Shown here: positions 5,012-57,293 of the stretch, piece after piece
Numbering within the stretch: position 1 is the first letter of the stretch
How the letters are laid out: each line of letters opens with the position of its first letter
Assembly: GCA_037893245.1 (NCBI GenBank)
Contig: JBAIAA010000398.1
Location: 372,001-436,000 of the forward strand
Length of the DNA: 64,000 nucleotides
DNA from: Crossaster papposus
Taxonomy: Eukaryota > Echinodermata > Asteroidea > Velatida > Solasteridae
Direction: 5' to 3'
Position numbers and translations under genes: made by a program
The notes under the pieces: generated by a model
What the model was told of the DNA's origin: nothing
The model's database searches: none
Seen by the model: only the letters and a program-made list of their open reading frames with translations

Positions 5012-5104
5012 GGTACAAAAATATATTGCACGAGCTATAACAATATTTTACGAGTCAAAGACGAGTGCAATATTGTTATAAGGAGTGCAATATATTCTTG
5101 TATC
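5012..5104. repeat. imperfect palindrome with CGAG-type core
   Basis: Arms 5012-5050 and 5066-5104 pair at 31 of 39 positions. They flank the 15-nt centre CGAGTCAAAGACGAG (5051-5065). The core differs from CGAGCCGAAGGCGAG, the core of the palindromes at 11290 and 18286, at three positions, all transitions. It sits exactly at the symmetry centre (5058). Its arms are AT-rich and unrelated to the other two palindromes. Confidence 0.8.
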
Positions 5105-6690
5105 TCCGAAAAAAACCCACATGACGATTTTAATCTTAAATCAAATACAATGCTTGAAAATTATCAATTCAATTGGAAAAATATTTTCAGGTTGACACAC
5201 CCAATAAGCACAAACGCACCAACTTTAATAAGTTTATTTTCCCGCTACAGTTAACCTTATTACAAGCGGCCAAGGGGTTGTGTATTATTTAACATTTGTT
5301 CCAACCTTACACTGGCCTTAACTCTGTCATTTTATCAGGATCTTTGGCCAGTGACCAATCATAATGGTCGCCGCTTCCCACCCAGAAATCACATAAATCT
5401 CAAACTAGAGGAGTGTAATGGGATCAAATAAATACAAGCCCCGCCAGCAGAAAACGAACATGTCATAACATTGATTTCCCATCAATTTCCCGTGTAAAGA
5501 CCGCATATTTTCAATACAAATAGTCCCGCGTGAGAGCAACTGGTACTTTGTAAACAAAGGAATTTCAACTTTTAGTTTGAAATCCCCTTAAACCTCTCCC
5601 GGACCGCTCATAATAGTTTATTTTATATATTTTTGAAGGGGGGTGGGAGATCTTGATACGATGTATTTTACAATCACAAGCCCAATAATATTTTGGTATC
5701 AAGGGTCTATTTTCATCAAACTAGAGATGTAAACAAACAGCGCATAGCGTCCAGGGGGTCGCCTCCCGTAGCTTATACCGGCCCGGGGTCCGAGTCCAGG
5801 GCTGCTTGCAGGCAGTACGTGGCAATGTTCACGGTGACAAAAACATTGGGCTTTTTCGAATCCCTGGCTTTGTCTTCGTCTTAGCTTTAAGGCGAATTTA
5901 AGCTCCAAACTCCGTAAACACATTCTCGTGCCTGTTGTGCTTAAGAAACAATAAATCAGTTGATATGAACCCAAACGATCGAATTTTCTATTTGCTTCCA
6001 TTTCTATTTGGTTCTTAATTGGAGGTGAAGCCGAAGCCGACGACGAAGCAAAGGTTTCGAAAACCCCCATCATAATGACTATGGGTTCACTGCAAAACGA
6101 GGTTGAGATCTTTTTTATTACAAGTTTGATTTATTGTCCATGTTGACGGGCCACTTCCAAAAAGCGTCACAGCCACATGCACTAGCGGCCGACCGTTTGT
6201 TTTATCGCCCCAGCACGAGCATAATCGTGATGGATTTATGCCAGTCCGCGATTCTATATTTTGAAAGGTTCGTAGGCAGTTACCGCCCAATTATTGAAGT
6301 AAAACAAAACACGCACTTCCGGGGTCGGTCGTGAAAGTTTCCGAGGAACGCAAAGGCTGAAGGGGAAGAAATATGCTATGCTTAAGATCGCAGACAATTT
6401 GGCAAGAATTTTAAGTGCCCTCCGAATGGGGTGGCGATAAATAAAATGCACTGGTCCTAGAAGAATAATAGATATTTCATTAAAGCAAACCTGAATTGCA
6501 TGTTATTGCGAACCATTGCCGACTTTGGGTAATAAAATCAGACTTGATAGTCTTGACATCAGCAGCGCTGATGTATTTTTAAGATTGGCACCTAGCTAAT
6601 CGATTTCAGATTCTTTTTTCGCGCAGTTCATGAGTTAAAGGTTGGAAACATAACCTTTAGTCACAGTGTGCCTTATAAAAAGAAAGCTGT
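5105..6690. other. intergenic, no gene seen
   Basis: Overlapping open frames exist on both strands between 5.69 and 6.45 kb, but none shows a recognisable domain and their content is not protein-like. Confidence 0.45.
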
Positions 6691-6699
6691 GGAAATCAC

Positions 6700-6786
6700 T
6701 TAATTGATGGCAAAGTTCGGTGGAATGTAAACCACCACGTAGTGTAACTTGTTACAATAGTTAGTCCAATGCGAACACGGCTTTAA
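6700..6786. mobile_element. terminal fragment of the 3399-3847 TIR family
   Basis: TTAGTCCAATGCGAACACGG at 6761-6780 matches the right end of the element at 3399-3847, and the following CTTTA matches too. The rest of the element is not recognisable, so this is a decayed fragment. Confidence 0.5.
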
Positions 6787-6828
6787 ATATATATCTACCT
6801 TCGTCCTGGTTTTTAAAGCACCCCTCCT

Positions 6829-6847
6829 CCCCCCCCCCCCCCCCCCC
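6829..6847. repeat. poly-C run (19 bp)
   Basis: Uninterrupted C homopolymer. Confidence 0.95.
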
Positions 6848-7379
6848 GATTTTATTCTTCCGGTTTAATATTTTATGCAGGGCTTCAATCCGTTATGATT
6901 TCCCTTATGGCCGGTCGTAAAACTAAAGACATGGAATCGGATTATAGACGTGTGATGAATAATAGATATGTTAATCTGGAATCTCTCCGGCATTACCATC
7001 TTATGGTAACTCGGCGGCTGGTCTTAATTTATAATTTAACTCTTTGTCATTGTATTTTTACCGGAGAAATAATAAATGAAATGAAATACAAATAAAATGA
7101 GTTCAGTGTAAAAACCAGGTCAGATGAACCTCCCCCTAGGCCCTATACCCAACTTTGATTTTTTTGTAAACTAAAAGATAGTTTACTGCTAACAGAACTT
7201 TAAAAAGTAACGAATCTATCCATCAACCCTAACACTCCTAAATCCTCCAATTTCAATATCATTTTGCACACACCCTAGGGAGTTAAGATTAGGCCTACGC
7301 CGGGTTAACGCTTTGGATAAGTTTTCTATGTCTTCAGCTACTAGCAAAGGCGAAAATATGGGTGGTTCAGGGTAGCAAA

Positions 7380-7520
7380 CCAACTTATACCCAGCACGAT
7401 ATGGCAGAGGGATACCCCCTCTTATCCCTATACCCTATACACACTCCACACTATATTGTTACCTAACACACACCCCCCTTAAAACCTAAAGAGAATTCCT
7501 GAGTTTCCGGGGTCACAATG
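7380..7520 (-). repeat. dispersed repeat family copy (minus orientation)
   Basis: The reverse complement matches the copies at 29575-29725, 45716-45830 and 54393-54530. Shared blocks are GGTAACAATA, AGTGTA.AGGTAT, and TATCGTGCTGGGTATA. The outer part includes an AGGAATTC block that is also seen at 29601. Function and class are unknown. Confidence 0.7.
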
Positions 7521-7685
7521 GCCCACACAAAAGAGGGGGAATTTTCTTTGCCACATTCGCGCTTCATAATTATGAACCAACTGTCCAAACCCGCTATCTT
7601 GTGAACAAATCTCCAAATTAGCTTTTTACAATTTGCTGATAACATCACCAGTCAATATCAGATTTCTTGCTTCCTCCCTTCATGC

Positions 7686-7792
7686 AAGCTCCCCCCCCCG
7701 ACCACCCCCCCCCCCCCCCACACTCACCCCCACTCACCCCCCCCCCCCCCCCCCACCCCCCCCCCCCCCCCCCCCCCCCCCACCCCCTGTAG
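7686..7792. repeat. long interrupted poly-C tract
   Basis: About 105 bp of C runs broken by single A or T bases. Confidence 0.9.
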
Positions 7793-9320
7793 TATGTATC
7801 TCTGATTTGAATAACCGAATTGCCGATAGCAAATTGTGTCGATTTTAAATTCTTCGCTTGAAGACGCCCGCCAATAAAGAATGACGGATCCGTTCAGCCG
7901 CAGCTGAATGCCCCCGTGTCTGCCCGGGCATGTGCATCACTTTTAAAATCATTATTTCCAGATATTTTCGCCGTAAAATGATACAGGTCCGTTTACCATC
8001 TTTGCCCCCAACCGAACATGTGTCTTTGATTCTGAACTATAAAATTCAGATCAATACGCTCTCCTGCATATTCCAAACATGAGAATAGTCGGGCATTTTA
8101 GGAGTGGGTTCATGATGCAGTCATATTCTTTTCATTTTGTTTTATGCTTCTTAGAGATCGATAATTTGAAAATGCCTAAATATTTTGGAAGTGATATAGG
8201 CGGAAACGATTGTTGCCACAAAGATTGGAAAGGCTTATTTTCGCCTGTTTTCTCCATGGGCAGAATGTTTCTTTTCCTTAGGGTTTTGGTTATGAAATTG
8301 AGATGTGCGCAAATGTATTTGTTCCAACAGGCAATGGGTATTTTTCGTCTGGGATATTGCGTTGAGATGTCTTTCGATTAGTTGCAGGTGTTTTTTGTTT
8401 AATAGAGACGCGTTGAGGGGCATGGATGACATTTTGTAGTTTAATTGAAGTCATTTCTATGGCGATAGGAAATGTTAGACTTCCGGATGCTTTTTCGATT
8501 GTGGTAAATTATCCGATTCGGTTGTGTGTTTCTTGTAATCGCCGGTGGTATTTCTTAGACCCATCGCGCTGTGGTTCACCAAGCACATTAACAAACAATG
8601 TTTCTGTAGTGTTTGGAAATGTTCGTCATTGCTGCTATAATATTATAAGTAATAACCGCACCGGGCATCTGGGTGTCGCCAATATTATAACGAGTGGATT
8701 AGTGGTATAAAGTACAAACCACAAAAATGTCGATGACGGATTCCGTCAATTGACTTTCAAACGGCGAAATATTCCCGTGGCATTTCAGCTTTTATGGGAC
8801 TCTTAAAGTTAAAGCATTCTTGGAATATTTCGTTGAAGCAAGAAGCAGACGTGTGGTTCCGCGTGAATGTGACCAGTCAACTTTGAAAGTGCACTTTGAG
8901 AGTTCTCACTGGTCCGTCCAATCTTTGGCCTTGAACGGGGCGATCATTTCTTGGTAATAATGTCGTTTCCAATGATGGTTGTGTTTCTCTTGAGTGATCA
9001 TGTTTTGAAGTGTACTATTTTTCACCAGTTCAAATTCAAAGTTCAGTTATTTCTTTAGGTAGGCATAGCTGATAAATTTACTGGAATTGAATTCCTAACC
9101 ATTGGCAAGTCTGCAGCTACCTGAACGTCGATATTTCATTCTTCTCGTTTGCTGTTAACCTTTGATGGAACTGTGGCAACTATTTTTTATATTGCGTGGA
9201 AATATTGAATATAGCGGCTGCGGACAGAAAATTACTCTTTGTAACGAAGATTCTTATTGGTCCAAAAATTTCAATGTAACCCAGAATTCTTGTGGTCTCC
9301 GCCCATCACCGATGTATTTA
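7793..9320. other. intergenic, no gene seen
   Basis: Open frames up to 100 codons (8079-8381) show no recognisable domain. No RNA gene is recognised. Confidence 0.45.
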
Positions 9321-9379
9321 CTGCGGTCTGTCTGTCTGTCGGGCTGTCTGTTTGTCGGGCGGGCTGTATGTAGGTCTGC

Positions 9380-9584
9380 GTGTATGTGCTTGTTTTCTTT
9401 TGCGATCGAGGATCGAAAAACAAAAGAAAACAATGGGAACAAAAGATCCTCGAAGGACGGTTTCTTTGTCCTCGATCGGCAAGATAAGCGCTAAGCAATG
9501 GGGTTAGGTTTCAGTAAAGGAATAAAGGAAAACACAATAAGGAATCCTCGGTCGTAATGGCAATTCACGAACTGTAGGTCTGTA
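9380..9584. repeat. dispersed duplicate of 59984-60183
   Basis: About 200 bp is shared with 59984-60183 with only a handful of differences, in the same orientation. It contains a short inverted repeat, CTTTTGCGATCGAGGATCG with ATCCTCGA and TCCTCGATCG. It is preceded by a GTCTGTCTGTC-rich stretch here but not in the other copy. No coding potential. Confidence 0.85.
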
Positions 9585-9728
9585 TGTATGTAGATCTGTA
9601 TACATGTATGTGTATAATTATGTATGTTACTAGGAGGATTACGGGAAAACGAAACTCGTCGGGGATGTTACAACGAAACTAATGCACCGAAACTTGGTAA
9701 TGACGTCAGCTCACGAGATTCGTTTATA

Positions 9729-9938
9729 GCGAGCCCATTTACGAGACGATATTTTATAGTTATTTAGAGATATATCCAAAGGAATTAGAGACATCTTTAA
9801 TTATTCATATCAATCTCGAATTATTTCGAGATATGTCTTTAGTTATTTAGAGATATGTCGAGTGTAATCCATTGAGATATATCTCTAAATAACTATGAAA
9901 TATCGTCGCGTAAAGTAATAAATGTTCAATAGGCTCGC
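9729..9938. mobile_element. MITE-like inverted-repeat element
   Basis: The left end GCGAGCCCATTTAC (9729-9742), followed by the arm ending about 9775, is mirrored at 9871-9938 (ends AGGCTCGC). The inner unit ATAGTTATTTAGAGATAT appears three times, twice on one strand and once inverted. No coding capacity. Confidence 0.7.
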
Positions 9939-9984
9939 CATAGACAAATCTTGCGACCTATTACGTCACCTTTCTGTGTATTAC

Positions 9985-10115
9985 TACTTTTGTTGCAACA
10001 GGTAGACATCTTCAATCTGGGTTAAAGATGATTCTATTACGTTTTTAGAACGATCTGTATCTAGTTTAGGAATCTGGATCAATTTTGATGTGTTTTGGAG
10101 ATAGGCCGGTTTTGC
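9985..10115. repeat. segment related to 930-1045
   Basis: It shares GATGATTC..TT, then a TAGGAATCTGGATCAATTTT-like block, with the segment at 930-1045. Likely debris of the same transposon family. Confidence 0.4.
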
Positions 10116-10566
10116 GTGTTTGCGGTCGGGGCGAAATTTTTCGCTTTGCCGAGTGTCATTTTCTATTTTTGATTTGATTGGTTGCAATCTTCCCATACTT
10201 GTTAACCCCTCTATTGTCGCTATTTATGACATATTTATATGGGTCACATAAATTCATGGAAATCGCAATGTTTTGAGTTCTATAGATTGCCTGCTTTGCA
10301 CATGGGAAAAAGATATGCACTATTAAATCCTTGAATCATAAAAATAAATTCATTGAACCACAAATATTTTGGCTGGATCAAAGACCTCCTCGGCGCTGAC
10401 AAAAAAACCTGCTAAAATAACTGTCAAAATTGTCTGTGCAGTTGCACGCGGGTCCCGATGAAATATAAACATGACATTCTTATCTTATTTATCTGTCGAT
10501 TATTTCATCAGATTATTGACAATAGTTCATTTGATTTAGGATAATGTGTGTGGGGGTGGGGGTGGT

Positions 10567-10596
<30 letters not shown>
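10567..10596. repeat. poly-G run (30 bp)
   Basis: Uninterrupted G homopolymer, the second longest in the window. It is flanked by G-rich GGTGGGGGTGG-like sequence. Confidence 0.95.
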
Positions 10597-10597
<1 letters not shown>

Positions 10598-11194
10598 GGG
10601 GGCATGGTACAAAATTGCGCAATTTTAAGGGAAAAACACAATGTGTGATTCTTCTTCTGATTTGCGGAGAAAGAACTTTGGTTATTGGAACTTGAACGAA
10701 ATACCAATAAATATAGCCGGTCCGCGATCGATGCAGTCGGTCATTGGGGGAATATATTAATTGGCATTAATCGTTTTCAACCTGCATTCATAAATACCTG
10801 GGACAGTTTAAGCATTCCTATTGGTCGAAGGCCCGTCACGTGGCCGGTATTAAACGGACGATAAAGACATGGCTTGTAGTGTTTAAAACCAGCTGGCAAC
10901 AACGCGATGTCGCATTATACCCGTCCCCAGGGCTCACTTTATTTCCAACCGTACCTCGTCTCCAATAGTAAGAGCGGGTGGTGTTGGGCGCGTACAGCTC
11001 GACACCCTGGGAACGAGGTTGCCAATGGCAGTAATAGTCTGGTTCATAGTAAATACGCTTTGTTGCATGTATTGTGTAGAGCGACAGAGGCGGAAACATG
11101 TCATTTGACACAGACAGAATGGCGAAACACCGAATTTTCCTTTCGACAATTTTCCGAGATTTTCGGGGCTTTTTGGGCTGAATTTTACAAAAAA
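10597..11194. other. intergenic stretch bounded by inverted 14-mers
   Basis: The 14-mer GGTATTTATGAATG lies on the - strand at 10785-10798 and on the + strand at 11195-11208. The latter directly abuts the palindrome. The segment between may be a 420-bp inverted-repeat element. No gene is seen. Confidence 0.4.
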
Positions 11195-11207
11195 GGTATT
11201 TATGAAT

Positions 11208-11372
11208 GGGAATAAATGTGTGTTCGGTCGGTTTTAATCACTCTGTTTAATACCGCTTGGAGTCTGGGTGCTGATAATTACCCTCGCCTTCGGCTCGGGT
11301 AATTATCAGCACCCAGACTCCAAGCGGTATTAAACAGAGTGATTAAAACCGACCGAACACACATTTATTCCC
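11208..11372. repeat. perfect 165-bp palindrome, core CTCGCCTTCGGCTCG
   Basis: Arms of about 76 bp are identical reverse complements with no mismatch that I can find. The centre (11283-11297) reads CTCGCCTTCGGCTCG. On the other strand this is CGAGCCGAAGGCGAG, exactly the core of the palindrome at 18203-18369. The core can fold as a GCC-GAA-GGC triloop with tandem G.A mismatches beneath it. The arms are unrelated to those of the other palindromes. Perfect arms imply recent formation or ongoing gene conversion. Confidence 0.95.
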
Positions 11373-11451
11373 TTATTATATACATGTAGGGCCTATACTG
11401 CATGTTGACTGGGAGAAAGAATTCGAACTCATGTGGAAACTCAGCATACCA

Positions 11452-11467
11452 CCCCCCCCCCCCCCCC
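11452..11467. repeat. poly-C run (16 bp)
   Basis: Uninterrupted C homopolymer. Confidence 0.95.
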
Positions 11468-12269
11468 TTTCCACCCTCAAATATAACCAGAAAAATAATC
11501 AAACACAAAGGATATAAACAAAAATATTAAATATTCACTAAGTTTTTTGAAAAAACTAAACGTTACAGAATAATTTATATTATTTTCAGAGGAAAATAAT
11601 ATAAAAGTAAACACTAGCCCTTGATTTAGGGTTCAAATAAAAGTCACTTCAAGCTAAATCAATAAAAGTCAACTGAAGTTAATAAGAACTCTCAACTTAA
11701 AGCATTCACAGGTGGTTCAGATATCTCAAGCCAAATTAAAAAAGACAAGCAACTCAAAGAATTTCTAAAGAACTCCGAACCACAAAGCGTTCCAACAAAG
11801 AAATAAAGTAAATTGGATCAATCACAACTTGAGAATAAGGCGAAAGTCAAGAAAAACAAAGTGAAGGTAATTTCACATAAACCTTGAATAGGTCAACCCT
11901 TTTGAAGTAAAGTAGTTCATAGCTTTTGGGGGAAGCTGATGGTCCTTGACCGCAGGTCAACCCCAGTGGCTCAATTAGAGGTCACTCACGCTAGTCATTT
12001 TCCTTGTTTGTTTTAATTTAAATTTACTAAAGGTAAACATACTCGAACTGTACATCCTAGGATTATGTTAAGAATATCTCAGGTACATACTAATTATTTA
12101 TTATCACTCAAATGGAATAATTGTACTGGAAGACAGCACTGTGTGGTGAGTTTCTGAGAGAGATGTTTCTTGACGAGGGCCTATAGTTAATAAAAGTCCT
12201 GATCTCGGGATGATGGAAGGAACTGCTGTGGATGCCGGTGTGGGTTGGGTTGGTAACACCTTCTTATTC
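11468..12269. other. intergenic, A-rich, no gene seen
   Basis: A-rich on the + strand, with many AAGTCAACT-like scattered motifs. No recognisable gene. Confidence 0.45.
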
Positions 12270-12280
12270 CTTCGTGGTTT

Positions 12281-12502
12281 GATCCTACCCACACTGACCT
12301 TTCCCTTCAGCCTAATCCTCCTTTTGTCTTTCCACAGGACTCTGTACATGCTTTTTCTTTTGTGTTTCTCCCGCCAGCTTTGATGTGCATCATGCTGTAT
12401 GTTGCCCTATACATGTATATGTTTGTTTCTTGTACACAGCCATTATGTCTCTGAAGAAGATCTTGTTAAGATCGAAATATTAGGCCCTCTTAACTTCATT
12501 TG
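12281..12502 (+). mobile_element. short 3' end of a Penelope-like element, with 11-bp TSD
   Basis: The segment matches 28860-29081, the 3' end of the Penelope-like element, block by block. Shared blocks include GATCCTACCCACACTGACCT, the ATGTGCATCATGCTGTAT block, CTTGTACACAG, and the terminal CTGAAGAAGATCTTGTTAAG hairpin. It is flanked by the direct repeat CTTCGTGGTTT at 12270-12280 and 12503-12513. This looks like the target-site duplication of a strongly 5'-truncated insertion. No coding sequence remains. Confidence 0.85.
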
Positions 12503-12513
12503 CTTCGTGGTTT

Positions 12514-13084
12514 GTGGTAGACGCTGCGAGCGAGACTCCCGTCCGGCTTGTTGGACATCTCAACGTCAATAAATGATATGCTGCCTTCCCTTTCTTGTTC
12601 CATGGTGTACAGGGTCTGCTGTGAGGCCTATTGAGGTGTTTAAGAGCTGGAGGTTATCCTACCCATGCTTGAATGTTTCCACGCTTTCATTTCTTCGGAT
12701 TTCGTGTCGCTCAAACGAAACAATAGAATTATTGGAGGAAGCCTTATTGGTAGGTAGCACCGATAGGTATAGATGTTCTGTTGACCATGGATTGCCAGAC
12801 ATGGGGATTTCGAGTTTTCATATGAAACCTAACCAAACGGGGGTAATTACAAGTTGTCTTAGGCCTACTGGTAACGACATACAGGTTAGATTTGCAACAG
12901 ACCACGCACACCCAGACACACGCTCATTCTTTGAGAGGATGGGGGGGGAGGGGGGGGGGGGGGGGGGGTGACGTTAATCCTAGTAATTATAAGTTCCAAT
13001 TATAATGTTCCTTTTTTTATCAAAAGACAGTCATAAAATGATTCCGACTATCTATACATATCGTACTCTTTAGTTTACCATAAC
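12514..13084. other. intergenic with a poly-G run
   Basis: An open frame at 12573-12971 ends in poly-glycine encoded by the G run at 12951-12968. It shows no domain and is probably not a gene. Confidence 0.45.
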
Positions 13085-13400
13085 AAATGGAATTTGAAGG
13101 ATTAGAAAGACACATTGATCGATAAAAATCTCTATATAATAATGGATGATTCCTACTGTTATCTACCAGATGAGCTAATATTGGCCCTCTCTATGGAAAC
13201 ATTATGCATATGCAGTTCGCTTGCCGCATATATGAATATAAGCCGAGAGACAAGTCGTTAGACCTGTCGGTCGCGTAACGTTGACCGGTGGGCATGGTGG
13301 CTCAGCGCAGGTTCATTTCAGTACATTATCTGGCGACTTGATTTCAAGTCTACTAAAACACATTCTACCTGGGCAATTCCATTGGCATGAAAGGCAGAGT
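13085..13400 (+). repeat. dispersed repeat, inverted partner of 38760-39105
   Basis: The sequence matches the reverse complement of 38760-39105 over about 300 bp. Shared blocks are ATTAGAAAGACACATTGATCGA, TACCAGATGAGCTA, CATATGCAGT, CTTGCCGCATATATGAATAT, and GACTTGATTTCAAG. Both copies are diverged by small indels. There is no conserved reading frame. Class unknown. Confidence 0.75.
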
Positions 13401-13579
13401 AAATTCACTATTATAGGATTTGAAAACTGAGCTCCTATAAAAGCTCTTCCGCTGAAATTAACCCATACCACGATTATAATACACGTAAATATCGGGTACC
13501 AGCCTACCTGCTAGCAGCCATCCTTCCTTTATAAAGTCTCGTGTAAAAGTCCGTCCGAGCTCACCATACCTTTGTTTAA

Positions 13580-13745
13580 CTCCGGTATTATTATTCCCCC
13601 TGGATGGGACGCCTTAAGTCCATAGCTGGGTGGAGACTGAAGAGAGAAAAATCGGTGTGAAGTGCCTTGCCCAAGGACACAACATATGACCACCAGCTGG
13701 ATTGGAACCCTGATCTTCTGATCAGAGGTCACGAACTAAACGAAA
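13580..13745 (+). repeat. SINE-like dispersed repeat
   Basis: It contains CCTGGATGGGACGCC, then AGTGCCTTGCCCAAGGACAC, then GGATTGGAACCCTGATCTTC. To my knowledge this series belongs to interspersed repeats found in many aquatic animals. The last block resembles an RNA polymerase III box B-type stretch. Only one copy is in the window. Family assignment is from memory and uncertain. Confidence 0.45.
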
Positions 13746-13837
13746 TGTTTCAGAAGACTATTTTTGTTTCTTGATTCTCTGAGTTCAGGCTGTGTACATT
13801 TTAATGGGCCAAATCGGGATCTTCATAATTCAATGTT

Positions 13838-14060
13838 ATAACGTCACACCTTTCCGGTCGATCGTCACAGATTTCGTCTACACATCAGTGGATGGTATCC
13901 AGGAAAACTGGAAAATTCCAAGTCGAACCGAATTTGCAAAGTGCCAAAGTGTTTTGTCACAACAACCTGTGTAAATTAATTGGTGAAAATCAATTAAACT
14001 GGAATAGAGTTCGTCTATACAACAACAATAGTTGCATCTGCAGTGAGGCCGAAGAAACTA
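13838..14060 (+). repeat. dispersed repeat, inverted partner of 44735-44925
   Basis: It aligns with the reverse complement of 44735-44925. Shared blocks are AACGTCACACCTT, CGATCGTCACA, GTGGATGGT, CCAAGTCGA, TTTGCAAAGTGCCAAAGTGT, and AATAGTTGC. One frame reads similarly in both copies: NVTP near the start and then PSR(T/S)(E/D)FAKCQSV. It is interrupted by a stop soon after in both. It may be a relic of a coding mobile element or of an exon duplicated to two places. I recognise no domain. Confidence 0.6.
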
Positions 14061-14631
14061 AAAAGCCTTTCTTTCATCTAAAAGTAGAAACCGGCTTGTA
14101 TGTCGTCACTTATTGTTATCGTAGTATCGTAGTTTATTGTGTAGTATCTTATAATACATTAGACTTGTAAATCGAATACAATAATTACAGTTGTATTTAG
14201 GCTATTATCGTAGTCACTCGCTGCAAATAAGGGTATTTTCTTAATGCTGTACATCCGGCCATGCTCGGCTGTCCAATTGTTCCGAGTACTATAGTATAAA
14301 TTTTTTGGGTTCATTTTATGCAAATCGTCCATCACAAGGCCAAAGGTCACCCGAGGTGTATTCGCCAGAGTTGAACATTAATGTGTTCCATTTTTGCGAA
14401 TTTGCAGAGTGACAAATTGCCCCGACGACACAAATTCGCTTTCGTGCCGAGTACGAACCGGCCTCAGCGCCGAAGTGAAACGCGAACGCGAGTAAGTAAC
14501 GTCATCGGGGAGTGTTTGCGCTGAAAATGTTAAAATAATTTCAACTCCGGCGAATTTGTGCAGCGAAAGCTTTGTTGCTTCAACTTCTTATTCGATTTCG
14601 CGTGAAGTATGAACCAGCGTTTTGGCATAGA
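14061..14631. other. intergenic, no gene seen
   Basis: No coding, RNA or repeat feature recognised. Confidence 0.4.
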
Positions 14632-14722
14632 AGTGCCAGCACAGGTTGGGTTCGAACCCACAACTTGCAGAATTACCCACAGACCACGAAATCAATGCTC
14701 CTAACCACGATGCCATGGCACT
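14632..14722 (-). tRNA. tRNA-like sequence (degenerate; pseudogene or SINE head)
   Basis: Read on the minus strand, the 5' end AGTGCCA pairs perfectly with the 3' end TGGCACT as a 7-bp acceptor-like stem. It is followed by a box A-like TGGCATCGTGG, and box B GGTTCGAACCC lies near the 3' end. Total length is 91 nt. Against a working tRNA, six extra bases lie between the T arm and the acceptor strand, and the anticodon arm is unclear. A tRNA pseudogene or the head of a tRNA-derived SINE fits better than a functional tRNA. Confidence 0.4.
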
Positions 14723-16814
14723 TTTTACGTCTCTAATTAGCAATCGTTTGGATTGGTAGCTAGCGGTCGGCTGAATAATTGCTTTGTTTGCGTCAAGTGG
14801 ACGATGTTTTCATACAATTAGATATTGTTATTTAAGCGCTCGACGTTTGTATGGATATTGTTGTCGGGAGAGCCAAGGCCGCCACAGGACTACGCAATTG
14901 CATAATTATAGTCAAGGAAATCAACCAATCATTGTTTGATAGCGTACGTGCCATAACGATGAGACGTTTTGTACATCGATTGCTCTGGTAGGGTATTATT
15001 ATGATGATGAGTAATTTGAATTCCCAAATTGCCTCGTTGCATTGTATTTTGTATACGCAATTCAAATATTCTTCTTTTGTGATGTGTATGTGTGACTCGG
15101 CGTGTCTTGCAATGTCAATAGCGTTGTAGTCAAATGAAATGAAACGGAATGACGTGTAAAAGGTTGCTGTTTTCCCAATAGGTGGGGGAGGGGGGGTGTT
15201 GACCAAAGGGGTGCCAGTGGGGGAACATACCCCCCCCCCCCCCCTTGTACCCCGGGCGGCATTTTCCACGTCATACAAACAATAAAAAAATAATTTTAAA
15301 AGAAGATTTATGATTGGAAAAAACATACCCGTGTGATTCTGGGTACCGTCCATCAAGCAATGTTACGGTGTTATACGCGGTGCGTGCTCGTCGACCGAGC
15401 ATGCACTACATCTGCCCCGGTACTCCAGGCGCCCATGTCCGGTGTGTGGTGGCCGTTGGCGTAACCCGCCCGTCGGCTCAACATTTAATAGATGATGGAA
15501 CCCAGACTCGTACGGGTATTTTGTTGCCACTGTTCGGAAAGGAGCCTTCTTAATTGTTTTACGTCTTTATTGTGTACATCATAAAACAGTTATGCGGGAT
15601 AATATAGGTTTTCCCAGGCGATATCGAAAAATGTGCACGATCATTTTGTAAAAGATACATTAATTTCGCGCTGATTTTGATAACGACGTATATATCCGGG
15701 TTTCATTTCTGCCAAAACAAACATTCGATTTCATTTTGTTTCATTTAAATAAATGAATGTGCATAACATTTAATTTCAACGATTACAAATACTTGATTAG
15801 GCTTTCGGTTTCACGCATGCGTGGCCGATTATTATATTAAGAATGTGCAATCTATTTCGCAGCAAATTGATTCGTCATTGTGTCGGCCTGAATTGAATAT
15901 TCTTTTTCATTTGTTATAATTTAATTCGCATATTCTGCGTTCAATTTGTTTGTATTGCGCATGCTGTGGAAGGTTGGGTCATTGGCCAGACTTTATGGGA
16001 GTTAATGTGACACCCCAATTGCGTTTAAAACCGGCTGGGCCGTTTTAAAATAGGAAAATAGTCTCCAAAATAGTCGATAAATTGGAAACTGTCTCAGGTA
16101 TTTATGATTTTTATTTTAATGTCTTTTCTCTCTCATTTTCAAGACATCGGGGATGTATGTCTAAGAATGGTTGTACCATGCATGCAGTGCGTTTCGTATA
16201 GGTGTCACCTCTCCAATGTTTAAAAAAAATAGACCACGTGGGGTCAATTTCATAGAGCTGCTAAGCAAACAAAAATGCCCAACATGAACATTCTTCCAAT
16301 TTCCAGGTGATGTATTGTTGTTAGTGACTGATTCAGTTAGTTTTTGCTTAGCATAAAAAGTACATGAAGTTTTGGCTAGTAACCTGATTTTACTGAGCAA
16401 TAATTGTTTGTGCTAAACAAACAGTTGTGCTTAGCAGAACTCCCAATAAAACTGACCCCTGGTTCAGTCCCCTAATGTTACTTTGGTTGAAACATACATA
16501 TACATTTTCGTTAATGCGCAGGAAATCGGCTGCACATTTAGCAAAACCGATTGTTGATAAATTAATAGAAGAAACATAGGATTTCGAATGTGCATTCGAA
16601 TTACTTGACAAATTGATAGAAAATGACTCGAATGATTGGACCCCTGCACACTTTCAATGAGACCGCAATTCACACCTTTCGCATGGGCTCATTTACATAA
16701 ATTATCATATTAGGGTACAAAGGTTAATGTAAAAAACAATTTTCTTTCGACCCAAAATTGTCAGCGTTAGCTTAACATGTTTTCCTCTCCATTTTCTTAC
16801 AATAATTCTGGTAC
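14723..16814. other. intergenic, low information
   Basis: It holds a G-rich then C-rich stretch at 15182-15244 (C run 15230-15244). A weak local inverted similarity lies between 15318-15356 and 15490-15525 (GATGATGGAACCCAGA-like). No gene is recognised; open frames here have low-complexity or composite content. Confidence 0.4.
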
Positions 16815-17010
16815 ATGTACTTATACCTGTATAGTGCTTTTTATCGTATACATGTACAACATTCCTAAAGCGCTTTACAATGAAAATATTACCCCGTTAA
16901 TCAGGCCCTGGACCACGCGGCAGCATTATGCGCTTAATCGGCATCGACCCTCGCATTTCATTATACCCTAACCCAAAACTACCTCCAGTCTAGACCACTA
17001 CTGGACGAAG
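16815..17010. repeat. dispersed repeat with AAGCGCTTTACA motif
   Basis: TATAGTGCTTTTT followed by AAAGCGCTTTACAATG and a CCTGGACCACG stretch resembles a widespread class of animal repeats with paired GCGCTTT blocks. A related copy is at 23935-24050 (TATATAGCGCATTTCA, then AATGCGCTTAACA). Probably a SINE or MITE. Family name not assigned. Confidence 0.45.
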
Positions 17011-17378
17011 ACCCAAACGTTTATAAGAAAACAGGAAAATGTCCCCACAACTCGGTCAGCCTTTTTTCTAAACAAAAGAAACTGTCCCCCCAACTAGATG
17101 TATACCTACCCACTCTTGTACGTGTTTGTGAGGGGGCGGGGTCGCGCTGATTTTAATGAGACATGTACAAGACGCGTTAAAATGACAAGATTCTCTTTAG
17201 TACACACCTGTCCCCCTCCCTAAGATATTCTACACGGTGTCACGATCTTAGATGTCTGTATATACTGCTTTGGTACTCTCCATTACAACTGAGTATAATA
17301 CTCCACAGTTGATATACATGTACCATCCTCATATGTAAACATGAACATGCGTGGGAATACGGGAAGGCGCTACAATTA

Positions 17379-17800
17379 AAACGACAACGTCGTGCGGCTT
17401 TGATAACGACATCGTCGTACTTGCGGCTTTGGTTACGACATCGTCGTACTTGCGGCTTTGATTACGACATCGTCGTACTTGCGGCTTTGGTTACGACATC
17501 GTCGTACTTGCGGCTTTGGTTACGACATCGTCGTACTTGCGGCTTTGGTTACGACATCGTCGTAATTGCGGCTTTGGTTACGACATCGTCGTACTTGCGG
17601 CTTTGGTTACGACATCGTCGTAATTGCGGCTTTGGTTACGACATCGTCGTACTTGCGGCTTTGGTTACGACATCGTCGTAATTGCGGCTTTGGTTACGAC
17701 ATCGTCGTACTTGCGGCTTTGGTTACGACATCGTCGTACTTGCGGCTTTAGTTACGACATCGTCGTACTTGCGGCTTTGGTTACGACATCGTCGTCGGCT
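17379..17800. repeat. 29-bp tandem repeat, about 14 units
   Basis: The unit is GGCTTTGGTTACGACATCGT followed by CGTACTTGC. Each unit contains the inverted repeat TACGAC-ATC-GTCGTA. Units differ at one base (CTTGC or ATTGC). The order from 17420 on is C C C C C A C A C A C C C, so part of the array evolved as a 58-bp dimer. Because 29 is not a multiple of three, all frames read through with an 87-nt period. These frames are an artefact of the array and not a gene. Confidence 0.95.
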
Positions 17801-18011
17801 TTAGTGTTAGGGTTTGGGTATAGTATGGCTAGTACAGCTGTTTTGAATCTCGGATATTCTCGCGAGACAATTAGTGATTTAGCAAACTACTGTGTTAATA
17901 ACAAAATTGTAAACGTCTTTTGGATGAGGTCCAAAATAAGGATTTTGTTTAATGCCATCAGTAAGTTGCTGATGTTTGTTTATGTCTCATGCACATATTT
18001 TGCAGTGCAAT

Positions 18012-18055
18012 CGGGAGGAGGGGGTGGGGGGGGGGGGGGAGAGGGGGGGGGGGGG
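18012..18055. repeat. G-rich tract
   Basis: G runs at 18026-18039 and 18043-18055 separated by AGA. Quadruplex-capable. Confidence 0.9.
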
Positions 18056-18202
18056 TTTGTTTACTTCCTCATTATTGTTATGCCTCGTCTCAGTGTGGAG
18101 GCGGACTCGCCCCATATCGTCTGGCATTTGTTGCTTTAATTGCTCTAGCATTAACAGCCTTTAAGGCAAGACTAGCCGACAATCTACTGAAGTGTTATAT
18201 AT

Positions 18203-18369
18203 AGGTAATAACAGTGCGAGAACCCGGTTATTACTGCGTGGTAATGACCGGGTTGGGGGATGACCGCTGGTAATGGATCGAGCCGAAGGCGAGGTCCATT
18301 ACCAGCGGTCATCCCCCAACCCGGTCATTACCACGCAGTAATAACCGGGTTCTCGCACTGTTATTACCT
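18203..18369. repeat. perfect 167-bp palindrome, core CGAGCCGAAGGCGAG
   Basis: The 75-bp arms are identical reverse complements. The centre (18279-18293) is CGAGCCGAAGGCGAG, the same 15-nt core (opposite strand) as the palindrome at 11208-11372. The arms themselves contain smaller inverted repeats (AACCCGG..TATTAC with GTAATGACCGGGTT). The arm sequence is unrelated to the other palindromes. Confidence 0.95.
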
Positions 18370-18510
18370 TTAATAAATATCTTTTTAACGAGAAAAATTG
18401 TGAAAATACTCCGAATTTCGCGACTTCGCGGCTTCTTCTAGGCCGTTTTACAAACGCAGCTTCGTTTCCGTATTTCGGCTTTGTTCATGTAGTTTAGCAG
18501 TGGTACGCTG

Positions 18511-19247
18511 TTTTCCTAGTTCCGGATTTTTCCTAGTTCCGGATCGCTTCAAATAAAAACCTACCTTGTTATGGCTTGGTCTCCAATACTATTTGTTTAG
18601 ATGAAGTGCATTTTGAAAAGAAGCATACAAGCTTCTTGATACATAAGTAAAAAATAAGTCTAAAAGTCTCCAGTATTAAAAAATCTGCCAAAGACTGAAC
18701 GTTCATTTTTTCCTAGTTCCGGATCGCCCGTAAAATACATGCATCAACTACACGCGCGCAAGCGATTTCATATGACGTGTTCTGTTGAACCATGGAGAAA
18801 TGGACAAAGTTTATCGGCTCGCGCCACACACGTACGTACACGGACAAAACATTTCGAAGCATTTCCTTGCAAGTCCTCTTTTTAAACGTGAAAGTATTTG
18901 AAATTTATTTTATACTGTATTTATATAAATTAATAAATACTTTATCAGAAATATAGGCTTGATTCGGGTTGGTTCTAGCTAGCATGGTTCTAGCGTGAAC
19001 ATTTTTCATGCACGAAGCAGTTTTTTACTCGATCCGGAATTGGTTAAACTGATCCGCAACTAGAAAAAGGGATGTCGGTACATTTGACGTCGTATTTTCA
19101 AATAAAGTAGAGCATAAATATCGAAACAAAAACGGTAGTTTCTCCATCACTCAAGGTAAACTACTACACCTATTTCATTTAAATTTCGAAGATTAGACTT
19201 GCCGAAAACAGCCTGGATATTTTTTGCGATCCGGAACTAGGAAAACG
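18511..19247. mobile_element. candidate element bounded by inverted TTTTCCTAGTTCCGGAT
   Basis: TTTTCCTAGTTCCGGAT begins at 18511. A second head-to-tail copy of TTTCCTAGTTCCGGATCGC is at 18529-18547 and another at 18709-18727. The inverted form GCGATCCGGAACTAGGAAAA is at 19226-19245. Degenerate inverted forms occur at 19030-19040 and 19051-19067. Repeated motifs at and inside both ends fit subterminal protein-binding sites of a non-autonomous transposon. A clear target-site duplication is not visible. Confidence 0.5.
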
Positions 19248-20788
19248 TCTGTAATGTGGCCAGAATGCAGCCCAAAGCCGGGGTTTAGAAAACGGCCCTT
19301 GGAAAGCCCATGATATTACTACATATAATGACCTGCACGTGATCGAGTCTCGGCCAATCAGAAGCCTTCAACTCTCCTAGGCATTTATTAAAACTATTTC
19401 ATGAATAGTTTTTGTGTTTATTATGCATTATCCCTTTAAGAATGATTGACCTATAAGAGGCCTTCGGTGTTAAGGCGTAACTCCGACGGCTCGTGTTTGC
19501 CAAAGCATCCATCCGACCATTTGTCTCCAACCCGTAAATTAATTAAGCCTCTCTCTCGGGGTTAGGCATATGTTTGCCCATGTATGACCATGTTTGACAA
19601 TACTTCCGCGGCTGGGCCCATTTAAAGATCCGCTCTTAATATCAAAATGACGGCAAGGTCTCAGGACTAAAGCGCGCCAGTATTGCTCTATTCCCAACAG
19701 ATTCCCTGGTTTGATTTTCGTGGAGGCCACCATTTTTTGCCATAAGTGGGTTGATAATTAGCTGTTGGACGTTAAAGGACAGTCCAACACATTATAACGC
19801 ATTCACTGAGATGCTATAGGCGCCATGCTGCTCATCTTTAGACTATTTCTAGCACTAACACCATGCATTCCTCAAAAGTGCCTGTACTATATAAATTGGT
19901 GGTAAATTTGAAGATATGTTATTGGTTGAAACCCATTGACTGTCCTCTTAATAGCAAGCCCTCAGGAGTGCTTTTTGCAAATAGGAACATGTAGTTTATA
20001 GGCCTTCACCACTATAGAATAGGCCTACCAAAGTTAATACGTCATCTTTTGTCTGTTGCCAAGGCAATAAGCTCCACACCAATATTACTCAGCCATTTCC
20101 CTGTGATTTCGCAATAGACGTTTGAGTCGACTAATCAATGTCACAATTAAAGATAACCCTATATTATGGATCCATTACAATGACAACTGACGTCACACTT
20201 GGGTACGGTGAATGAAAATGTTCGATTTCATAGCCGAGTCCAATGACAATATTTAGTTTAGGCTCGTGCGCCGATCCTTTTTACAAGTCGTGTCCGCGAA
20301 TCCATTTTATATTCCCAAAAACATGCGATTGTGTATTCACACACGCGCCAACGTGGCGGGAAATTTTCAACTATCGTTGTAGCTCGCTGTACATTTAGAC
20401 AAAGAACCCAAACGATGGTTTATCAATTTTATAATTACTTCATCATAAAGAAACAGTACCAATGTGTTGTTTATTTTGTGTCATCAGTTCTTCAAGAAAC
20501 AACTTTAGATGATAGCCGCTGTTTCGTGTCACTCGTGAACGTGACTATAGCTCCCTATTCAAGGCAAAACCACCAAAATGACCTTGTGATTTTGAAATGC
20601 AAAGTCAAATTGGATGTCAAATATGTAAATATATACCAAGTTTAGTTTAGGTTTAGTATTTCAACCTCCACCTCACAGGTTTTACTTGTCTAACATCGGG
20701 TCGTCGGAACTGGAATTTAAATCGCACCATTACAGATTGTGTAATATGATATGATATAATCACCGTGGATGATAAAAGCATGACAATT
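19248..20788. other. intergenic, no gene seen
   Basis: An open frame at 20331-20645 (104 codons) has no recognisable domain. Nothing else stands out. Confidence 0.4.
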
Positions 20789-26971: not shown

Positions 26972-27063
26972 CCAGATAAAGCAATCGAACCTTAGATGTA
27001 GTGAGAGTTGAGCACCCACTTTTTTTTTTGGTCCGTGCTCCTAGTCTATTAGTTATATATCTA

Positions 27064-28629
27064 TATAACAAGACTGGTAACCCTGGTAGGCCTATCGTCT
27101 CGGGTAATGGCTCACCCACTGAACACATCTCCATGTTTATTGACAGTTTTCTTAAACCCCTTGTCCATAGGATTCCATCATACATCCATGACACCCCGGA
27201 CTTCCTGCGCAAGCTCGAAGGAATCAAGGACCAGATTCCCAGAACGGCCATCATTGGGACCTTTGACGTCTCATCCTTGTACACTAACATACCACACGAA
27301 GAAGGTATTCGTGCTTGTTCCATAACCCTAGCTAGGGCAGGACACACGACCCCTCCCATAAGTGACATTCGCGCCCTCATGAAACTTGTACTAACGAAGA
27401 ATAATTTTTCCTTCCTAGATAAGCACTATCTACAGGTACATGGCACTGCAATGGGTACTCGTATGGCACCCTCCTTTGCATGCCTCTTTTTGGGTGACCT
27501 CGAGGAACGCATGCTTGCCTTAGCACCGTGCCGTCCCTGGATCTGGTGGAGATACATTGATGATGTATTTTTCATATGGACCAGTGATGAGGACAGTCTA
27601 CTGACTTTCACTAATCACATGAATTCCTTCCACAGGACCATCAAGTTCACATCAGAGTACTCACATCATCAGGCCCACTTCCTGGATGTCACCATCCGCA
27701 AGGAGGACAACTTAATAACCACTGATCTGTATTCTAAACCCACAGACACACACCAGTATCTCCACTCCTCCAGCTGTCACCCTAGGCATTGTAAGACTGG
27801 TATAGCATTTAGTCAAGCCCTCAGACTCAAAAGGATTTGTTCCAACGACTATGATTTCTCCCGCCATTCACAGATACTGAAGAACAACTTGGTTGCCAGG
27901 GGTCACAGTTCCCGCCAAGTTCAACGTGCCATTGCCAGAGCCAAAGCCGTACCCAGAAATTTGGCTCTAAAGGTAAAGGCCCCCCAGGCTAATGCCAAAC
28001 CCATGATCCCCCTGGTCACTACCTTTCACCCCAGTCTCCCTTCCCTTCGCAAAATCACCAACGACAGCCATCACATTCTCCACACTTCAGATCGCCTTGT
28101 CCGGGCCATCCCCGACAGCCCTGTATTGGCCTATAGACGCCCTCAAAATCTACGAGACCTCATTGTTCGAGCCGAAGTTCCCAGCTTGGATGCATCTCCC
28201 CCCATCCAACACGGAACTTTCAAGTGCAGCTCTAGATGTGTGGTCTGCCAGATCCACATTCAGGAGTCTGACTCCTTTTCTGGCCACTCTTCTGGTACTA
28301 CTCATAGAATTATTGGTAACATCACTTGCAGTACATCTAACGTCATATATCTCATCTCTTGCAGGTTTTGTGGAGTTCAGTATGTCGGAGAGACCAAAAA
28401 TGCCCTAAAAAAGCGTTTCTACGGTCATCGATCGACTGTCAACACCAAGAAACTGGATACCCCTGTAGGACATCACTTTAACCAGCCTAACCATTGCATT
28501 TCTGATATGATTCTTCAGGGCATAGAATCACTTGGCCATCGGAAAGACTCAGTCCGCCTCAGCCGGGAGAAAGTCTGGATGAATCGTCTTCGGACTATTG
28601 GGCTTAACATCCAACTAGGAAATGATTAA
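27064..28629 (+). CDS. Penelope-type reverse transcriptase with GIY-YIG endonuclease, 5' truncated
   Basis: The open frame encodes 521 residues from the element boundary to a TAA stop. The frame is open upstream to 27001, but that part is host flank and has no ATG. Seen in order: GNPGRPIVS near the start; motif A FDVSSLYTNIP with the catalytic Asp at residue 68; HGTAMGTRMAPSFACLFLG (the Penelope counterpart of the QG...SP motif); and YIDD at 164-167. A CX2C pair sits at 392/395. A GIY-YIG-type endonuclease starts with VIYLI (427), has YVGET at 440-444 and KKRFYGHRS after it, and ends with a WMNRLRTIGLNIQLGND tail. In this family the RT copies element RNA and the GIY-YIG domain nicks the target. 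The truncation removes the N-terminal part, so the copy is presumably dead on its own, although the remaining frame has no stop. Intactness suggests a young insertion. Confidence 0.93.
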   Translation, partial: YNKTGNPGRPIVSGNGSPTEHISMFIDSFLKPLVHRIPSYIHDTPDFLRKLEGIKDQIPRTAIIGTFDVSSLYTNIPHEEGIRACSITLARAGHTTPPISDIRALMKLVLTKNNFSFLDKHYLQVHGTAMGTRMAPSFACLFLGDLEERMLALAPCRPWIWWRYIDDVFFIWTSDEDSLLTFTNHMNSFHRTIKFTSEYSHHQAHFLDVTIRKEDNLITTDLYSKPTDTHQYLHSSSCHPRHCKTGIAFSQALRLKRICSNDYDFSRHSQILKNNLVARGHSSRQVQRAIARAKAVPRNLALKVKAPQANAKPMIPLVTTFHPSLPSLRKITNDSHHILHTSDRLVRAIPDSPVLAYRRPQNLRDLIVRAEVPSLDASPPIQHGTFKCSSRCVVCQIHIQESDSFSGHSSGTTHRIIGNITCSTSNVIYLISCRFCGVQYVGETKNALKKRFYGHRSTVNTKKLDTPVGHHFNQPNHCISDMILQGIESLGHRKDSVRLSREKVWMNRLRTIGLNIQLGND

Positions 28630-36042: not shown

Positions 36043-36421
36043 AGGTGGATACACCATTTGCAGATATCAAAAATATTTACTGCCGAATTAATAAGAAATA
36101 TCTTACTCATTTGAAAGTAAATGCAGATTCTAGGCATCCAGCAAAATGATTGCGCTAGATATCCTGTTATTATTCAATTTTTTTTTTATTTTATAATGAA
36201 AAATTCGCGATCGCTAGACGGCGATCGCGAAAAAACAAAGATAACATAAGAATAACTGCTTGACGCCGGTTGAAAAAAACCGCTGTTTTTCGTGCTTTTC
36301 TTGGCATCCATGATTGTAAAACTTCGGACAGCTCAGTTAAACGATATTTACTATAAAATACAACCCCCCAAATATACTCATTTATGATAATTCAAGCAGT
36401 TACCAATGGTGTATACTACCT
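36043..36421 (+). mobile_element. TTAA-flanked MITE family A, copy 1
   Basis: TTAA lies on both sides (36039-36042 and 36422-36425). The ends are AGGTGGATACACCATTTGCA and an inverted form of AGGTAGTATACACCATTGGT. The interior carries a GCGATCGC palindrome and GGCATCCATGATTGTAAAAC. TTAA target duplications are the hallmark of piggyBac-type transposons, so this may be a non-autonomous relative. Copies are at 39851, 40301 (inverted) and 49237 (inverted), and there is an array of ends at 47545. Confidence 0.8.
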
Positions 36422-36425
36422 TTAA

Positions 36426-39846: not shown

Positions 39847-39850
39847 TTAA

Positions 39851-40235
39851 AGGTAGTAGGCCTATACACCATTTGCAAATATCGAAAATATTTACTACCG
39901 AATTATTAAAAAATATCTTACTCAATTGAAAATAAATAATGATTCTAGGCATTCAGCAAAAGGATTGCGCTAGATATCCTGCAATTATTCCCAAAAAATG
40001 AATTTTATAAAGAAAAATTCGCTCTCACCGTCCGGCGATCGCGAAAAAACAAAGATAACATAAGAATAACTGCTCGACCCCGGTTGAAAACAAACGCTGT
40101 TTTTCGTGCTTTTCTTGGCATCCATGATTGTAAAACTTCGGAAAAGTCAGTTAAACGATATTTACTATAAAATACAACCCCCCAAATCTACCCATTCATG
40201 ATAATTCAAGCAATTACCAATGGTGTATACTACCT
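39851..40235 (+). mobile_element. TTAA-flanked MITE family A, copy 2
   Basis: TTAA at 39847-39850 and 40236-40239. It is highly similar to copies 1 and 3 and lies in the same orientation as copy 1. Confidence 0.85.
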
Positions 40236-40300
40236 TTAACATACCAAGAACTACAAAGAAAAAACAGGGAGTTACTTAAAAAAACTGAATGTTACTTTAA

Positions 40301-40684
40301 AGGTAGGATACACCATTGGTAATTGCTTGAATTATCATGAATGGGTGGATTTTGGGGGTTGTATTTTGTAGTAAATATCGTTTAACTGACCTGTCCAAAG
40401 TTTTACAATCATGGATGCCGAGAAAAGCACGAAAAACAGCGTTTGTTTTCAACCGGCGTCGGAAAGTTATTCTTATGTTATTTGTGTTATTTCGCGATCG
40501 CCGTCCGGCGAGAGCGAATTTTTCTTTATAAAATTCTATCTCCAGAATAATTACAGGATATCTAGCGCAATCATTTTGCTGGATGCCTAGAATCAATATT
40601 TACCTTCAAGTGAGTAAGATATTTCTGAATAATTCGGTAGTAAATATTTTCGATATCTGCAAATGGTGTATAGGCCTACTACCT
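40301..40684 (-). mobile_element. TTAA-flanked MITE family A, copy 3 (inverted)
   Basis: TTAA at 40297-40300 and 40685-40688. It is the reverse complement of copy 2, only 57 bp away. The pair forms a giant inverted repeat with arms of about 385 bp. Confidence 0.85.
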
Positions 40685-40778
40685 TTAAATGGTATGATGA
40701 TAAGTGTTGACGTGGAACAACACGTATTATAGGCCTACATTATGTGCTCATTTTAAAAGAGATTTGTTCCTTTGATGA

Positions 40779-49743: not shown

Positions 49744-49828
49744 CCTAGATCAAAACAACTTACAAAAGTCACCGATCAATCTCATTATGAGATTAATCGG
49801 TGACTTTTGTAAGTTGTTTCGATCTAGG
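49744..49828. repeat. 85-bp near-perfect palindrome
   Basis: The 42-bp arms match at 40 positions around the centre CTCATTATGAG. The ends are CCTAGATC/GATCTAGG. It does not carry the CGAGCCGAAGGCGAG core of the other palindromes. Confidence 0.9.
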
Positions 49829-56745: not shown

Positions 56746-57293
56746 ATCAAAGGCATATTTCCCCAAATATTTCCCCAGTCTGTCCCCAGTGATTTGACTG
56801 CACTTGAAGGGTTACATTTTCCGCATTTTTGTCCGAGTGATTTTTTTTGTAATAATGAGGAATTTACATTTCCCACCCCTGATTTTATTATAAACCTTCG
56901 GTATGATTCTGGCGAAAGTTTCCGAAAGTAAACCTCCCTAATTGAAGGGACGATTTTGGCCCACCGGCATAAAGGATTCCTAGTCGCTGAATATTCATGA
57001 TTTTTCATACATTTGCATATAAATTTGTACGTCCAAAATGTGCACATTGGGTGTCCAAAGTAGCGGGGAGGTTTTCCGAATTGAGACACCAAAACGCTAA
57101 CATTTAATCTTGCTTGAGTATTTGATTTTTATCTGTAACATCCACTTTATAAAAAATACACGCTCTTTTAAAAAAAACACTAACGTTAATCTTTAAGATT
57201 AAAAAAATATAATTATGCGTCATTTTAATATGGGAAAATGTGGTTCGCGGTGTTAAACAAGTATGTTTAAAACCAGCTCATAGGACCTGGACG

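Follow-up and report, generated by a model that had tools for sequence, protein, structure and literature searches.

Among the mobile elements known to carry a palindrome at one end, the closest to those treated here are the HINEs of the Helitron group, whose layout—as given in two reports (PMC4067079, PMC7492417)—is that of an inverted repeat, a body, a second inverted repeat, and then a palindrome, with no duplication of the target and with copies that may stand in tandem. A palindrome of another kind is that of the zebrafish Angel, a miniature inverted-repeat transposable element (MITE) for which a stem-and-loop model of amplification of the self-pairing single strand was proposed by Izsvak et al. 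(1999), according to PMC12628747. With regard to the arms of inverted repeats, template switching between them homogenises non-identical arms through clustered changes (PMC8604942), and polymerase theta can extend stem-loops from two terminal pairs (PMC11292364). Here we analyse a stretch of 64,000 nucleotides from the sea star Crossaster papposus (assembly GCA_037893245.1, contig JBAIAA010000398.1, positions 372,001 to 436,000), henceforth the window, in whose coordinates two long palindromes, at 11208–11372 and 18203–18369, share a 15-nucleotide centre, or core, CGAGCCGAAGGCGAG. An earlier sequence-only reading had taken their arms as unrelated and the core as a probable maker of palindromes; we conclude, with a probability of roughly 0.7, that the palindromes serve as the hairpin termini of transposable elements from two related families, high in copy number and apparently non-autonomous, and the claimed palindrome-making sequence is replaced by the end of a mobile element. 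What is new here is only the great length of the terminal palindrome, the constancy of its tip, a record of correction between the arms in both directions, and a tandem array; both families may already stand in repeat catalogues.

Two families of palindrome-ended elements

The arms of the first palindrome (11208–11283 and 11297–11372) are complementary at 76 of 76 pairs and those of the second (18203–18277 and 18295–18369) at 75 of 75, and CGAGCCGAAGGCGAG occupies the exact centre of both, on the minus strand at 11283–11297 and on the plus strand at 18279–18293; on these points the sequence-only reading was accurate. The arms, which it had held to be unrelated, proved to be diverged homologues when compared, both anchored on the core and with gaps, against segments of the window. 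Anchored and ungapped, they are identical at 38 of 75 positions, as against 18 to 24 at other offsets, and none of 127,850 window segments scored as high, in a control that took the arm in the backward direction but the segments, from both strands, in the forward one; with gaps the identity was 46 of 72, a score matched by only one of 41,984 other window segments.

In the host assembly (1.02 Gb) the exact core occurs at 1,625 sites on the forward and 1,127 on the reverse strand (2,752), compared with 1 and 0 for the reversed core pattern that served as a control, and with up to two mismatches at 3,597 and 3,037 sites, compared with 261 and 212, so that the core is far above the chance expectation; repeat counts are lower bounds. 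We read 89 exact-core sites in 88 loci, drawn from 100 listed places that fall within contigs C1 to C29; the sites are partly dependent, certain loci being near-duplicates (L199/L201/L202/L205; L208/L209; L211/L212; L258–L260). Symmetric flanks, in which 15 or more of the 20 flank pairs nearest the core are complementary, were present at 75 of the 89. As to the identity of those flanks, 45 sites carried the arm of the first palindrome (family 1) on both sides, 31 that of the second (family 2) on both sides, and 11 a single recognisable arm, while the remaining 2 carried none. Since 87 of the 89 sites thus bear an arm of one of the two families, the arms are two inherited sequences rather than arbitrary flanks. 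The sequence-only reading had named two outcomes that would speak against a palindrome-making core, either that most core sites lacked symmetric flanks or that the arms were the ends of a transposon family; the first is not what we found, and the second is.

The suggestion that the core acts as a fold-back primer, turning arbitrary neighbouring DNA into palindromes, had drawn on its being common to two long palindromes whose arms differ greatly, and might also have drawn on the related core of a third repeat family of the host, described below, as well as on an archaeal contig (L163, Woesearchaeota), where a near-perfect palindrome centred on the core at position 6206, with 18 of the first 20 pairs complementary and with arms differing from those of the host families, lies between two open reading frames that start in opposite directions. 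That palindrome was, nevertheless, the one exception among 46 core sites on prokaryote contigs, as located by a pattern requiring TAAT upstream, the other 45 having fewer than 12 of 20 flank pairs; and of the core sites examined on viral contigs, at least 125 in number, none attained 12 of 20. The 15-mer alone is therefore usually without a palindrome, and within the host genome the shared centre was inherited with the element and does not turn arbitrary DNA into palindromes; fold-back priming on arbitrary flanks, refuted for that genome by the arms at 87 of the 89 sites, is exceedingly improbable.

The element of family 1 extends over 10786–11374 on the minus strand (589 bp), with the palindrome at its left end and the core at the tip of the hairpin, and shares some 600 bp of homology with the insertions L169 and L171; its ends were fixed by the comparison of the flanks of 29 copies, by an empty site, and by tandem junctions. 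Its far end, AGGTATTTATGAAT, is a 14-bp inverted repeat (terminal copy at 10786–10799) whose reverse complement lies directly inside the palindrome (inner copy at 11194–11207). Family 2 has a corresponding pair, of 13 to 14 bp, in an element located at 18203–19391 on the plus strand (1,189 bp), again with the palindrome at the left end and the core at the tip, and with about 1.2 kb of homology to L166 and L170: the inner copy, TTTAATAAATATCT, at 18369–18382, begins with a T that is also the last base of the palindrome, and the terminal copy is at 19379–19391. The far ends of the two families are themselves homologous, with a score of 60 versus 40.5 for the best of 12,310 window segments.

Other copies conform to this anatomy. 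A search with the first palindrome, in which 40 of 201 candidates were scored, gave 2 identical sequences, one being the query itself, and 38 about 99% identical, and 30 loci were chosen for their likeness to it, among them the copy of the window itself (L214) and several near-duplicates (L218/L219, L221/L225/L241, L228/L242). A survey covered 78 loci, each longer than 2.5 kb and including the 30 so chosen. Both ends could be located in 44 loci of family 1, at lengths of 555 to 1,056 bp with most near 590, and in 14 of family 2, at 605 to 1,715 bp with most near 0.65 or 1.2 kb; in 9 more loci of family 1 and 5 of family 2 an end went unrecognised, and 6 were left untyped. By eye, the outer flank of the palindrome varies from copy to copy, and its inner side continues as element in most of the 51 copies printed, the exceptions including L165, L172, L177, L187, and L195. 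These comparisons show the palindrome to be a terminal part of a longer element, the arms to be inherited within families, and the core to stand at the hairpin tip in both. An assembly artefact was ruled out by the many copies with different flanks. As for the foldback transposon that the sequence-only reading had offered as an alternative, the core is indeed the hairpin loop of a mobile element, whereas the capture of flanks left no sign.

A fourth site in the window, at 57305–57319 on the plus strand, matches the core at 13 of 15 positions and had been considered a decayed palindrome. The region 57230–57368 is instead a deletion derivative of 139 bp related to family 1, which retains the left arm, the core variant, and the right end, and has lost the right arm and the interior. 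Its arm (57232–57304) agrees with that of the first palindrome at 56 of 68 ungapped positions, a value equalled by none of 41,994 segments; the comparison with the second palindrome was non-significant alone, 1,724 of the 41,994 segments being as good. The right end, in turn, scored 48.5 against the end of family 1, a value reached by none of 17,606 segments, and 24.5 against that of family 2, reached by 646. The site, being such a derivative, need not be a lone arm awaiting copying, and its interpretation as a one-armed fold-back substrate was dropped once the right side was seen to be the other end of the element; likewise, a 14-mer common to the flank of the first palindrome and to position 57357, at first put down to chance, is the inverted repeat.

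Correction between the arms

For the statistics of the arms the copies with indels in them were removed, by which step 36 of the 45 family-1 and 21 of the 31 family-2 two-armed sites were kept, and these were collapsed to 26 and 15 distinct copies, respectively. The consensus arms of family 1 have four left/right mismatches within seven nucleotides, all of which persist in 19 of the 26 distinct copies and three of which persist in 3 others. Three of the four are erased in L196, as they are in 28 of the 30 loci chosen for likeness to the first palindrome, both arms carrying the letters usual in the right arm, and in the copy of the window and in L213 the fourth is erased too, with the letter of the left arm. 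L251 departs in the opposite direction, having the letters of the left arm in both arms at all four positions, and L203 is a partial case. Comparison of the copies shows one arm to have been rewritten with the letters of its partner, the polarity of each event being judged from the majority state; and since, whichever state be ancestral, at least one change en bloc took the letters of the partner arm, templated correction is suggested.

The arms of family 2 are more regularly paired: 8 of 21 ungapped copies have 75 of 76 pairs, the unpaired position being a T/G next to the core, and among 16 distinct sequences 98.0% of 1,280 cells were paired, with 6 of the 80 pairs changed on both sides, a sign of covariation. 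In the corresponding control, sliding the arms gave 0 to 2 such pairs, and shuffling gave a mean of 2.4, with 1 of 500 shuffles reaching 6; for further pair types in this family no excess over the shuffles was found, 496 of 500 being as high. Arms might also be kept matched, with no copying between them, by selection that favours paired bases and acts on mutations arising separately in each arm, and the paired changes at the family-2 pairs 19/149 and 39/129 are what that explanation would lead one to expect. In L251 and in the group of L196 and L213, on the other hand, three to four positions within 7 nucleotides carry exactly the letters of the partner arm, as templated copying predicts, and at least one of these two block states arose by a block change no matter which was ancestral; we accordingly consider selection without copying a decidedly doubtful account.

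One arm of the terminal palindrome, then, templates the correction of the other, which is how we account for perfect arms; of the copying imagined by the sequence-only reading a weaker form survives, while the action of the core on arbitrary DNA does not. The process resembles template switching between inverted-repeat arms (PMC8604942) in that non-identical arms turn identical by clustered changes, and differs in taking place within a transposon end, in proceeding towards either arm, and in being found afterwards in many copies as a subfamily. In the copies of family 1 nature has kept a record of palindrome arms corrected from one another, in both directions.

Insertion sites and tandem copies

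Another repeat supplies both empty copies (e.g., at 36358 and 40172 of the window) and occupied ones (L171, L229, and L240, which may trace to one insertion). From the comparison of the two, the inserted piece is AAGGG...GAAT, which by itself would allow a target duplication of 0 to 2 bp. In 29 distinct copies the base after GAAT is A in 19, G in 7, and T in 3, and the base on the left is T in 28 of the 29; a constant 2-bp duplication of TA is excluded by this variation, and the copies compared, namely the empty and filled sites and the 29 flank pairs, leave room for a target duplication of at most 1 bp. The left flank approximates TTTAYTAA in those pairs, and the right flank is biased as well. 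Taken by themselves, the sequences flanking the two palindromes of the window provided no usable duplication, the best exact candidates, of 4 and 3 bp, being often reached at random places.

Copies of family 1 also occur fused end to start. Such junctions, with at most one mismatch, were found at 615 and 17 sites on the two strands of the assembly versus 0 and 0 for the control, and 84 of the first 100 listed are on contig C783, at steps of about 584 bp between 24,036 and 73,607, an array that continues past the latter position. The one unit that we read there is a complete element, with 68 of 75 arm pairs in its palindrome, fused directly to its neighbours at both ends. Of the dispersed sites outside C783 some may be variants of the inner side, as in L231, while those of L218/L219 are true junctions; family 2 gave no exact head-to-tail junction, and its 6 sites with one mismatch, whose letters look like those of inner-repeat variants, were left uncounted. 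Copies of family 1 can, therefore, join end to end with nothing between them. The array lies on one strand, which probably explains the strand imbalance of the core counts, and the exactness of the joining suggests a circular or rolling-circle intermediate. With the dispersed copies and the array the assembly holds a path from a scattered hairpin-ended element to a tandem repeat whose period of 584 bp would, to judge from the unit read, each time include a palindrome of 165 bp. Instability is the usual expectation for long palindromes, and the way in which such an array persists on C783 is therefore a testable question.

A MITE of the common cut-and-paste type, bounded by long terminal inverted repeats, would share with these elements their high copy number, their shortness, and the existence of internal deletion derivatives; the hallmarks of that class, inverted repeats at both termini and a target duplication, are nonetheless not those observed, for of the two sides just one has the inverted repeat at its terminus, no duplication exceeds 1 bp, and direct head-to-tail fusions are present, all of which makes this origin highly doubtful.

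A stronger competitor would be a tyrosine-recombinase (Crypton-like) or other circle-integrating element, whose circle would insert by site-specific recombination at TTTAY-TAA sites resembling the right end of the element, TTTATGAA. The consensus of the left flank in the 29 distinct copies and the bias of the right one, the lack of a target duplication, and the exact head-to-tail junctions would all be in keeping with it; the combination of an inverted repeat with a terminal palindrome is, however, the arrangement described for HINEs, and we hold circle integration to be unlikely.

Affiliation of the elements

The families described here have in common with the Helentron-associated elements (HINE, DINE-1, and the Cg_HINE of oyster; PMC4067079, PMC7492417) an apparently non-autonomous nature, a high copy number, the absence of a target duplication, and asymmetric inverted repeats of 12–15 bp, of which the inner one is followed by a palindrome at one end; with the Helitron group, in the same sources, they share the repetition of whole elements in tandem. 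In the present families the inverted repeat sits farther from the palindrome end than in the HINE descriptions. The asymmetric terminal inverted repeats and palindromic ends recall those attributed to Helitron2 in PMC4067079, with the difference that here just one of the two ends proved to carry a palindrome. The canonical Helitron ends (5' TC, 3' CTRR, and insertion between A and T) were not those of our elements, which have ATTC and CCTT, the palindrome coming last. As in palindromic MITEs such as Angel (PMC12628747), a single strand would pair with itself, but in our elements the palindrome constitutes one end only of something longer. Movement of both families by a rolling circle, of the Helentron or Helitron2 type, would be consistent with this layout.

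Several observations weigh against that assignment, and in part against the reading as a whole. The target here is T followed by A, whereas TT is reported for Helentrons, and the palindrome of the mite HINEs measures 5–10 bp (PMC4067079), as against 165 and 167 bp here. The direct-match signals between the flanks of the insertions, of up to z 8.1, are such as a duplication might leave; since both flanks have biased positions we would ascribe them to a shared target bias. A circular intermediate of any kind, that of tyrosine-recombinase elements among them, is compatible with the exact head-to-tail junctions. Perfect arms were found in none of the 36 ungapped family-1 copies of the unselected sample, which have 59 to 74 of 75 pairs. 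Finally, the assembly contains at least 150 matches to the Helitron Rep domain PF14214 (150 of 273 candidates having been scored), many within very long open frames, the longest of about 3,470 codons, yet no Rep or helicase match was tied to these ends as an autonomous partner, and the four Rep matches on contigs C17, C18, and C22 are each separated by over 60 kb from the nearest exact core listed on those contigs. Because TT was not the target and no autonomous partner was so tied, we do not file the families as members of the Helentrons or HINEs, and describe only their layout as Helentron- or Helitron2-like.

The core at the hairpin tip

DNA folding of the core returned the GCC/GGC stem around GAA that the sequence-only reading had drawn, with the tandem G.A mismatches that it had placed beneath left unpaired in the model; the stability of the isolated core was unremarkable (z -0.91). 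Tandem sheared G.A pairs and GAA triloops are unusually stable, a property that the folding model does not show, and the tandem G.A mismatches in the CGAG/CGAG of the core are presumably of the sheared kind. The DNA mini-hairpin d(GCGAAGC), reportedly found by Hirao and colleagues in 1994 to be extraordinarily stable, likewise has a GAA triloop closed by a C-G pair, which in the present core is extended by GCC/GGC and by the tandem G.A mismatches in CGAG/CGAG.

At an arm identity of 46 of 72 the probability of keeping 15 of 15 core positions by chance is about 0.001, so that the tip seems constrained, a comparison that concerns the two families, the copies in the genome having been found by means of the exact core. 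The core would, we propose, persist since it makes the hairpin turn, for which a partner arm offers no template. A broader and tentative idea, rather unlikely in its entirety, is that the 15-nucleotide tip, with its GAA triloop and tandem G.A mismatches, might serve both as a terminator read by a rolling-circle initiator and as the pivot for arm-to-arm copying, the arms drifting together while the tip stays fixed, and that unrelated elements might have converged on the same tip.

Outside the host, scans of viral contigs for flanked cores added, beside a contig already in the sample, two near-identical contigs that to the eye seem protein-coding, and otherwise found none. Another viral contig, L118, has decayed symmetric-looking repeats around the core at 3834 and 5401, with 8 and 11 of 20 pairs, and by eye the shorter CGAGCGAAGCGAG near its core sites. 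Rfam gave 0 matches, and a text search of the literature located the core in no paper and its shorter pieces, among the matches listed, in papers unrelated by title except for PMC8604942.

Other sequences of the window

The third palindrome noticed in the window (5012–5104, plus strand) has at its centre, at 5051–5065, the sequence CGAGTCAAAGACGAG, three transitions away from the core, and 31 of 39 arm pairs. Matches elsewhere and their alignment indicate a separate repeat family, with 39 other matching places (40 of 92 candidates having been scored) and, in seven aligned copies—that of the window and six others, L283–L288—a variable core of similar build; by eye, the ends of the family lie near TATTRGATG...CATCTAATA, and a second CGAG/CGAG mismatch pair lies within its arms. 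An isolated right end resembling that of family 1 is located at 16091–16109 on the plus strand, with a score of 44.5 for which there was no control and with no left end recognised upstream. Other inverted repeats of the window lack the core, for example a near-perfect palindrome of 85 bp at 49744–49828, and an imperfect inverted repeat of 840 bp at 39847–40688 with related copies at 36049–36425.

Of five open reading frames of the window submitted to Pfam, four had no match and one, at 26980–28629, matched a reverse transcriptase with an E-value of 1e-6, just below the Pfam cut-off; the C-terminal half of that frame resembles, by eye, what we take to be a Penelope-type GIY-YIG region.

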